64,000 nt of DNA. Origin: Myxococcus landrumus (lineage in GTDB: Bacteria > Myxococcota > Myxococcia > Myxococcales > Myxococcaceae). Within the stretch, counting starts at the first letter, position 1, and every line of letters begins with the position of its first letter. Below, piece by piece: positions 55,446 through 60,481 of this stretch. Both the position numbers and the translations under genes were made by a program. The stretch covers positions 4,786,001-4,850,000 of the forward strand of contig NZ_CP071091.1 of NCBI RefSeq assembly GCF_017301635.1, given 5' to 3'. Below the pieces are notes generated by a model. That model was not told the DNA's origin. It saw only the letters and a program-made list of their open reading frames with translations, and ran no database searches.

Positions 55446-56870
55446 TCAGGCCTTGAAGGTGAGCAGCGGGGACAGCCGAGCCACCTCGCGCACGATGCCG
55501 GCCTCCACCTGCGAGTCCACCACCGGGCGGATGGGCTTGTAGGCCGCGGGGGCCTCCTCCACCCGGCGCTCCTCGCGCAGGGAGATGCAGTCCACTCCCT
55601 TCAAGCCCAGCGCGGCCTCGCTCTGGTCCGCACCGGCGCGAGACAGGGAGAAGCGGGAGCGCGCCCGGCCCGCGCCGTGGGACGCGGACTCCAGCGCCCG
55701 CGCATCACCACACCCCACCATGAGGAAGGAGGTGGCGCCCATGGAGCCGGGGATGATGACGGGCTGTTCCGCGGCCGCCGGGCACGCGCCCTTGCGAGCC
55801 AGCCAGCCGCCCTCGTACGGGAGGGTGAGGTTGTGGGGCACGTCGTAGACGAGGGGCGCCTCCACGTCGCCGAACAGCTCGCGCAGCGTCTGGCGCAAGA
55901 GCTCCGCGAGCAGCAGGCGGTTGAGGAACGCATAGTTGGCGGCGGTGGCCTCGGCCTCCAGGTACTGGGAGACGAGCGTCTCGTCCGCCAGGGGAAGGAT
56001 GCCGCTGTCGGGGAACGGTGCCCCGTGAGGCCAGGCCTTGCGGGTCCGGTCCCTCCACGCCACGCCCACGTGCTTGCCCACGTCCCGGCTGCCGGAGTGA
56101 ATCATGAAGGCGAGCTGCCCTTCGCGAACACCCCAGGCCCAGGCCCGCGCCCGGTCCTCCACGGCCTCCACGCGCTGCACCTCGACGAAGTGATTCCCTC
56201 CGCCGATGGTGGCCAGGCCCGCGTCACGCACCACGCCTTCGCGGGTGAGTGCCTCGGGAGCCCAGTCCGGGTTGCCTCGGAGCACGCCGCCCAGGTGGAT
56301 GCGCTCCACCTCCGCGTCGAGCTGCTTCAAGTCCGCGTCACGCGCACACCCCAGGGGAGCATCCAGCGTCTCCAGGAGCCACCCCGGAATGCCGTCGCGA
56401 AGCAGGGCCGTGGAGGCGCGCGAGGACATCGCCACGTCCCGCGTGCCGAAGAAGTAGTGGCCCTTCATGCGCTCGACGAAAGCATCGCGTCGAGCCAGGA
56501 AGTCGTCGACGGACAGGTCGGCGACGTGCAGGCGCATGCCACAGTTGATGTCGGTGCCCACCGCGCCAGGGACGACGAGCCCTCGCGTGTGGAGCACCGA
56601 GCCGATGGCCACACCGGAGTCACCGGGGTGGAAGTCGGGGGTGGCGCGCACGCGGAGGACCTCACCACCGCTGGGGTGCTTCAAGGCCGCGAGGTGCGCG
56701 AGTTGTTGGAAGGCCTTGCCCTCGACGGGCAGGTCCGGGGGAAGGAGCACCTCGGCGGGCGGCGCGTTCGCGTCGGCCTGGAGGCGCACGGAGTAGAGGC
56801 GACCGTCATAGGTCACCTCGAGCCCCTCACGGGCAAGCGCCCGCAGGAGCCGATTCAGTTTCGGCTGCAT
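55446..56870 (-). CDS. rtcB: RtcB family RNA ligase
   Basis: A 474-residue RNA ligase that joins 2',3'-cyclic-phosphate or 3'-phosphate ends to 5'-OH ends using GTP and manganese. Metal ligands appear in GTDINCGMRLHVA, GGGNHFVEVQ, IHSGSRDVGKH and DVPHN. The GMP-accepting histidine is His398 in ASHGAGR. In bacteria RtcB repairs cleaved tRNA and rRNA. No RtcR regulator or RtcA cyclase is adjacent. A strong hairpin stands 18 bases upstream of the start codon. Confidence 0.93.
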   Translation of the reverse strand: MQPKLNRLLRALAREGLEVTYDGRLYSVRLQADANAPPAEVLLPPDLPVEGKAFQQLAHLAALKHPSGGEVLRVRATPDFHPGDSGVAIGSVLHTRGLVVPGAVGTDINCGMRLHVADLSVDDFLARRDAFVERMKGHYFFGTRDVAMSSRASTALLRDGIPGWLLETLDAPLGCARDADLKQLDAEVERIHLGGVLRGNPDWAPEALTREGVVRDAGLATIGGGNHFVEVQRVEAVEDRARAWAWGVREGQLAFMIHSGSRDVGKHVGVAWRDRTRKAWPHGAPFPDSGILPLADETLVSQYLEAEATAANYAFLNRLLLAELLRQTLRELFGDVEAPLVYDVPHNLTLPYEGGWLARKGACPAAAEQPVIIPGSMGATSFLMVGCGDARALESASHGAGRARSRFSLSRAGADQSEAALGLKGVDCISLREERRVEEAPAAYKPIRPVVDSQVEAGIVREVARLSPLLTFKA

Positions 56871-60248: not shown

Positions 60249-60352
60249 CGGCCGGAGCCGGGACGTTGAACCACGTCGTCAGGCTTTCTCGGCCACCGCC
60301 GTCATTCCTCGCATCCGCACCCGGCAGAAGAAGCCCTACACGCCCAAACTTC

Positions 60353-60439
60353 GCTGGTTCGAATCCAGCTCCCTCCGCCACTGTGGAGGGATGGCCGAGT
60401 GGTCAAAGGCACCAGACATGAATCTGGCAGGTTCCCTGC
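60353..60439 (+). tRNA. tRNA-Ser parts in permuted order (3' part, then 5' part)
   Basis: First comes a perfect T arm (GCTGG, loop TTCGAAT, CCAGC; 60353-60369), acceptor strand TCCCTCC (60370-60376), discriminator G and CCA (60378-60380). After four bases (CTGT) comes GGAGGGA (60385-60391), the exact complement of the acceptor strand. Then come a serine-type D arm (GCC...GGC), an anticodon stem CCAGA/TCTGG with the 6-base loop CATGAA, and a short variable hairpin CAGG/CCTG (60428-60438). All arms of a tRNA-Ser are present but in permuted order. The loop is one base short and has A in place of U33, so this may be a scar or pseudogene. Confidence 0.4.
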
Positions 60440-60481
60440 TGGCTTTCTCACTCGGGTGCGGACTCCTTTTCCCCGTCGTCG

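Follow-up and report, generated by a model that had tools for sequence, protein, structure and literature searches.

The stretch of Myxococcus landrumus DNA analysed here (64,000 nt, hereafter the window) carries a predicted noncoding RNA gene that resembles Y RNAs and bears a circularly permuted tRNA-like body (Table 1). The T arm, acceptor stem, D arm, anticodon arm and variable hairpin that the initial annotation had recognized in permuted order at 60353-60438 are present as described, as are the perfect 7-bp acceptor and 5-bp T stems and the odd anticodon loop, CATGAA, which is 6 nt long and lacks U33. That annotation had overlooked an inverted repeat (I1) in which 60314-60335 is matched by 60441-60462 and which encloses the permuted body. 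Because the outer and inner helices of this repeat close the body, forming a basal stem interrupted by an internal loop, the unit extends over about 60312-60463. Folding of this segment yielded -73.2 kcal/mol (z -5.07) and none of 200 shuffled sequences was equally stable, which, together with the recurrence of the structure in relatives with compensatory changes, indicates that it did not arise by chance.

Within the element, the acceptor strands TCCCTCC and GGAGGGA form 7/7 pairs, and the G-CCA at 60377-60380 is present in the window copy and unconserved across the family. The unpaired segment CUACACGC, which leads from the basal helix to the T arm, contains the sequence ACACGC, near-invariant across the RNA family (alignments A1 and A4), and is a candidate protein-binding site. 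The CAUGAA loop of the anticodon-arm mimic is not a decoding loop. Over the window, ARAGORN called no tRNA and no tmRNA and Rfam returned nothing reaching a gathering score, while scans of the RNA locus for a sigma-70 promoter or an intrinsic terminator found neither. Identity with tmRNA was rejected, the overlaps with tmRNA being sub-threshold (24-31 bits) and confined to other loci; the permuted two-piece tmRNA shares with the element a permuted acceptor/T arrangement in bacteria, but the element gives no ARAGORN tmRNA call.

Table 1. Coordinates of the RNA element, its parts and associated features in the window
Feature	Position	Strand	Details
rtcB gene (PF01139, E 3.3e-89)	55446-56870		ends 3.4 kb from the RNA
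Promoter-like site GTCAGG-N16-CGTC	60278-60303	+	34 nt before RNA model start; putatively ECF-sigma type
Y-RNA-like noncoding RNA gene with circularly permuted tRNA-like body	60312-60463	+	model R1, fold z; predicted transcript ends
Basal helix, outer 5' strand	60314-60324	+	partner 60452-60462; inverted repeat, fold, covariation
Basal helix, inner 5' strand	60327-60335	+	GA 60327-60328, GAAGCC 60330-60335; partner 60441-60449; covariation, fold
Unpaired segment, basal helix to T arm	60336-60343	+	alignments A1 and A4
T-arm mimic	60353-60369	+	stem GCTGG/CCAGC 60353-60357/60365-60369, loop TTCGAAT 60358-60364; 5 bp paired in 100% of cells, two-sided change in 3/5 pairs
Acceptor-stem mimic, closed 7-bp hairpin	60370-60391	+	TCCCTCC 60370-60376, G60377, CCA 60378-60380, linker CTGT 60381-60384, GGAGGGA 60385-60391; two-sided change in 7/7 pairs
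D-arm mimic	60394-60410	+	stem GCC/GGC 60394-60396/60408-60410
Anticodon-arm mimic CCAGA-CATGAA-TCTGG	60412-60427	+	6-nt loop without U33
Small hairpin CAGG-TTC-CCTG	60428-60438	+	sequence unconserved across family
Basal helix, inner 3' strand	60441-60449	+	GGCUUU 60441-60446, UC 60448-60449; covariation, fold
Basal helix, outer 3' strand	60452-60462	+	inverted repeat, fold

Distribution and covariation of the RNA family

When the locus was used as a query on 41 genomes, 19 loci with the whole or a partial layout were recovered (L001-L018 and L020); L019, from the same search, consists of ordinary tRNA genes. Loci L001-L015 share one position, next to where a UvrD/PcrA-type helicase gene (PF00580) ends. 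At one of these pcrA loci (L015, genome G010) the RNA is truncated, with its D and anticodon half lost, and the other copies in G010 are intact. A pattern made of the constant parts matched 23 DNA stretches in the genome_contigs collection, which come from Myxococcus, Pyxidicoccus, Archangium, other myxobacterial records (Kofleriaceae, Labilithrix, Polyangiaceae) and one contig binned as Planctomycetota. On a Planctomycetota-binned contig (L046:5170-7491), RNAs occur with the vWA partner protein described below, which has 66% identity to its Myxococcus counterpart, reflecting either transfer or misbinning. A phage origin was rejected, as the locus was unmatched in phage records and the pattern unmatched in viral_contigs.

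The family was captured in a model, R1, which matches the window copy at 131.2 bits over model positions 1-150, this copy (as L001) being itself one of the 25 seeds. Among 195 Myxococcota genomes, R1 detected the RNA in 76 at E<=1e-6 and in 103 at the looser E<=1e-3, where the 27 extra hits (one of them G097) are weak and mostly uninspected. At E<=1e-3, genomes of the genus carry about three to eight RNAs each, although a few of these matches may be tRNA arrays. The M. landrumus genome itself has five solid matches (131, 109, 98, 66 and 60 bits); of its three weak matches, two (36.7 and 34.1 bits) are true tRNA arrays. A further set of T arm, acceptor hairpin and D arm in permuted order, lacking the usual basal motif, can be seen at L150:1330-1480 of the same genome (32.8 bits).

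Two types of copy were distinguished: type A, which includes the window copy, is Ser- or Leu-like, keeps the anticodon arm and has its break in the variable arm, and type B is Ala/Val-like with its break in the anticodon loop. In alignment A4, which compares 25 diverse copies chosen by the family motif against a structure drawn from the window copy, standard pairs occupy 95.8% of 825 cells (shuffles, 77.2%; slid versions, 38-51%), and both sides have changed in 20 of the 33 pairs, including all seven acceptor pairs. The anticodon stem is kept among the 20 type-A copies of alignment A1, with two-sided change in three of the four counted pairs. Pairing extends to 97.5% of cells in the nine type-B copies of alignment A2 (37-47% when slid) and to 91.1% of those in the anticodon stem; this alignment varies little, its two-sided changes in 6/36 pairs being matched by 105/500 shuffles and its further pair types not being in excess (484/500 shuffles). 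Because two type-B sequences folded singly gave unconvincing z values of -2.10 and -0.55, the case for the type-B structure is comparative and does not draw on folding energy.

A script that takes the best acceptor offset was able to parse 79 of the 82 distinct copies. The T stem forms 5/5 pairs in 75 of these, and the best acceptor hairpin forms 7/7 pairs in 71. The loop of this hairpin measures 3-12 nt in 76 copies and 17, 34 and 57 nt in the other three. Loop insertions of 57 and 34 nt are found in the acceptor hairpins of L045:672-870 and L052:6174-6347, respectively.

The initial annotation had weighed the element as a permuted tRNA-Ser gene. The transcript of such a gene would be cut by RNase P and trimmed at its CCA, after which its ends would either be ligated or stay apart in a two-piece tRNA. 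The window copy taken by itself invites this reading through its perfect acceptor and T stems, G73, encoded CCA and Ser-like body. The wider family speaks against it: because a discriminator-CCA (NCCA) follows the acceptor in only 18 of the 79 copies parsed, and the acceptor loop shrinks to 3-4 nt in some, the RNA is not a tRNA precursor. Its anticodon loop, 6-7 nt long, has no constant sequence and no U33 and is absent from type B, so that no functional anticodon loop is available. A normal tRNA-Ser(UGA), which the annotation had recommended looking for, is found elsewhere in the genome, at about 4112935 of G000:C1. The permuted tRNA genes known from algae and archaea resemble the RNA in running from T half through acceptor to D and anticodon half, and it is by way of BHB motifs that their transcripts become tRNAs (PMC3978253); the RNA family differs in having neither a constant anticodon nor a conserved CCA. 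The nearby rtcB gene, to which the annotation had also pointed, is indeed there, and the order rtcB, SDR, adenosine deaminase, PQQ and RNA is kept, with its neighbors, in all 10 genus genomes examined. This proximity counts in favor of a permuted tRNA gene, and rtcB may be an operon partner of the RNA, but the kept order may be plain gene-order conservation, and a search of 21 further loci, 20 of which surround the gene for the 587-aa protein discussed below, did not find rtcB. A permuted tRNA-Ser gene is very improbable.

Still more remote is the second explanation raised at the outset, namely a degenerate scar left by two tandem tRNAs that lost their outer halves or by an element integrated at a tRNA gene. 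The two true tandem tRNA arrays mentioned above do match R1 weakly, but comparison of the locus in relatives, as the annotation had proposed, revealed an element conserved across the phylum with compensatory changes. It occurs in multiple copies that all have one constant basal stem, and many of them share a single upstream motif. The scar reading, that of an attachment site included, was rejected because the permuted form and its closing helix are conserved, here and elsewhere, over loci bearing many different tRNA-like bodies.

The 587-aa protein and the resemblance to YrlA

Two of the solid RNA copies of M. landrumus lie on either side of a gene for a metallophosphoesterase (PF00149), which is found 8-9 kb to the right of the copy in the window. 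The gene next to it, outside the window and 8.9 kb beyond the window copy, with these two RNA copies in front, encodes a 587-aa protein with a C-terminal vWA domain, the only domain that Pfam assigns. Behind it lie genes for an uncharacterized protein and a JAB protease, joined in some relatives by a ThiF/E1-like gene. A partner was sought by gene order because the five of 195 genomes that match Pfam TROVE barely overlap the strong RNA set, to which G122 alone belongs, G182 and G185 having weak R1 hits; on the same counts, an ordinary Ro60 was rejected as the partner.

The 587-aa protein is found in 76 of the 195 phylum genomes at E<=1e-30. With the RNA taken at E<=1e-6, both are present in 75 genomes, the RNA alone in one (G097), the protein alone in one (G158) and neither in 118, a co-occurrence that is not phylogenetically independent, most of the genomes with both belonging to one family. 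Among 20 protein loci (16 picked by protein alone and four by RNA, some cut by contig ends), an RNA lies <=300 nt upstream of the 587-aa gene in 12, including 8/16 of those picked by protein, and the remaining eight have no RNA directly upstream. These loci also encode a 330-aa protein (18/20), JAB (16/20), ThiF/E1-like (6/20), an 81-aa protein (5/20) and a phosphoesterase (6/20), the ThiF or phosphoesterase genes being kilobases distant in some. No Pfam family was found in more than one of 14 homologs of the 330-aa protein. The 81-aa protein beside ThiF has no Pfam match and is a candidate ubiquitin-like protein; in the operon stretch of M. landrumus itself (L054) there is no ThiF/E1-like match and no 81-aa/Ubl-like match.

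Sequence comparison does not connect the 587-aa protein with TROVE: Pfam TROVE (PF05731) is unlisted for all 18 homologs at E up to 10 and was not found in the M. landrumus genome, and a PDB sequence search with the protein gave no TROVE. Structure prediction, by contrast, places it closest to Ro60. With the full AlphaFold2 model (pLDDT 78.4, pTM 0.46), Foldseek ranks 1-6 are occupied by TROVE 9kop and Ro60 1yvp, 2i91 and 1yvr (E 4e-9 to 3e-7, TM 0.36-0.39), and VIA aligns 405 residues to 1yvp (Z 14.3, rmsd 8.5), vWA-only chains scoring up to Z 15.5. For the N-domain modeled alone (pLDDT 84.5), Foldseek again places Ro60 first, at only E 0.022 and TM 0.26. The first 10 VIA rows for this domain are Ro60/Rsr/TROVE (Z 9.3-7.6, rmsd about 14 A; next row, 6.5), a range covered by the VIA warning that helical repeats at Z under about 13 may share only a common arrangement. 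The MIDAS residues D399, S401, S403, T462 and D491 are invariant in the 18 homologs and follow the vWA motif DxSxS...T...D as given in PMC11277228. The protein thus has the C-terminal vWA with complete MIDAS expected of Ro60/Rsr, and shares with these proteins (PDB 1YVP, 2NVO) a predicted N-terminal helical-repeat domain as well, but it differs in its 11-18% identity in fold alignments and in lacking a Pfam TROVE match. The models provide good but not final evidence that it is a divergent Ro60.

In YrlA, a stem made of the 5' and 3' ends is combined with a tRNA-like domain, the stem being assigned to Rsr and the tRNA-like domain to PNPase (PMC8394870), and YrlA is described in PMC11472068 as a circularly permuted match to tRNA. 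The RNA family has the two hallmarks of such a Y RNA, since in it, as in YrlA (RF02553), a basal 5'-3' stem bears a tRNA mimic in which T arm, closed acceptor hairpin and D arm are circularly permuted; in type-B copies the break is likewise at the anticodon position, and if the 587-aa protein is read as Ro60-like, both RNAs lie near a Ro60-type gene. There are also differences. Type-A copies keep the anticodon arm, break at the variable-arm position and have no match to RF02553, the window copy included; several RNA copies are present per genome, some far from the protein; the partner is invisible to Pfam TROVE; and JAB/E1-like genes, not rtcBA, come after the protein gene. The family copy that matches RF02553 best (L131, type B) does so over its full length with 43.2 bits (E 2.5e-6), under the cut-off of 69. 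Because sub-threshold YrlA hits occur in 7/14 control genomes too, such hits carry weight only when topology and gene order agree with them. Four of the five Pfam-TROVE loci have R1 hits of 29-42 bits, and on the same stretches Rfam YrlA scores 43-65 bits, below its 69; at L138, the R1/YrlA hits lie directly behind the 557-aa reading frame in which the TROVE match is located. The Y-RNA-like elements next to ordinary TROVE genes therefore resemble the RNA family. At another Pfam-TROVE locus (L139:200-600, G051), three tRNA-Sec-like matches, one of them above the cut-off, lie beside a YrlA-like match.

We conclude with fair confidence that the tRNA-like element works like a Y RNA, its scores falling short of formal RF02553 membership. 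It is probably a YrlA-like noncoding RNA, and its likely partner is the 587-aa protein as a divergent, TROVE-like plus vWA relative of Ro60/Rsr. That the RNA might instead be a tRNA mimic with a function of its own, such as a tRNA-nuclease decoy or a tRNA-modification sponge, with a vWA protein that is not kin to Ro60, is suggested by the failure to detect TROVE by sequence, by the weak fold statistics of the N-domain, and by the role of competitive inhibitor proposed for YrlA in PMC7790460. We consider this unlikely, in view of the Ro60 entries that head both fold searches, the YrlA-like topology, the adjacency of RNA and protein genes, and the cross-hits beside true TROVE genes.

Promoter motif and proposed role of the Y-RNA-like system

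The site GTCAG-N14..20-CGTC is found <=110 nt upstream of 45 of the 82 copies in the family, against a background of 0.008 per 110 nt, a count that is not independent, since the motif was first seen in loci among these same copies and many copies are orthologous. In 32 copies it lies 29-41 nt before the model start, in 10 at 80-84 nt and in three elsewhere, and many of the copies that lack it are preceded by another in a tandem arrangement. The strict motif precedes two of the five solid copies in the M. landrumus genome. With two GTCAGG-CGTC sites in the window versus 1.44 expected, the motif counts by position only, and defining a regulon from the motif alone was rejected, its 36 genome sites being fewer than the 68 of a reversed control. 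Seven of the 20 protein loci encode a protein with sigma-70 region 2 as well as a zinc-finger protein. The motif may be of ECF type, the RNAs may be under sigma control, and motif and sigma-factor gene together hint at a regulon.

For a Y RNA in this setting, a sigma factor would turn on both the RNAs and the operon, the basal stem would dock onto the ring of the Ro60-like protein, and the tRNA-like body would either gate the ring or tether a tRNA-recognizing or RNA-degrading partner, the purpose being the surveillance of structured or damaged RNA. The analysis shows the structure and conservation of the RNA, its co-occurrence with the protein, the gene order, the similarity of fold and the promoter motif, from which point the scheme, with its transcription, binding, gating or tethering and stress control, and with a role for the JAB/E1-like genes, is a proposal. 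More tentatively, Myxococcota and a few other bacteria might possess a second, diverged Ro60-Y RNA system, in which sigma-controlled RNAs mimic different tRNA classes (those with a long variable arm, with the break in that arm, and ordinary ones, with the break in the anticodon loop) and a Ro60-like ring is tied to a JAB/E1-type ubiquitin-like cassette, coupling the surveillance of tRNAs or structured RNAs to protein tagging. Should this be true, Ro60-Y RNA particles would extend to a large bacterial group that sequence models have missed, the tRNA mimicry of Y RNAs would take two topologies matched to two structural tRNA classes, and the particle, whose Ro60 component is an autoantigen and a protein of RNA quality control, would be linked to JAB/E1-type enzymes and a sigma-factor regulon. 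Because Myxococcus is genetically tractable, the purpose of the tRNA mimicry can be tested by deletion of single RNAs.

Our search of the literature by title and abstract found no paper treating the RNA family, and so far as that search reaches, four features are new: the topology with an anticodon arm, the partner that had escaped detection, the promoter motif and the JAB/E1-like genes. Burroughs and Aravind reportedly described Rot/TROVE scaffolds with cognate RNAs in 2016, so an earlier description of the RNA family is possible.

The metallophosphoesterase encoded between the two RNA copies (L054:8289-8996) has a putative diadenosine tetraphosphatase as its best PDB match. Its partial likeness to Pnkp falls far under the Pnkp cut-off, and it may be an RNA-end phosphatase. 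A metallophosphoesterase gene also lies directly downstream of the RNA in L020, which comes from another family.
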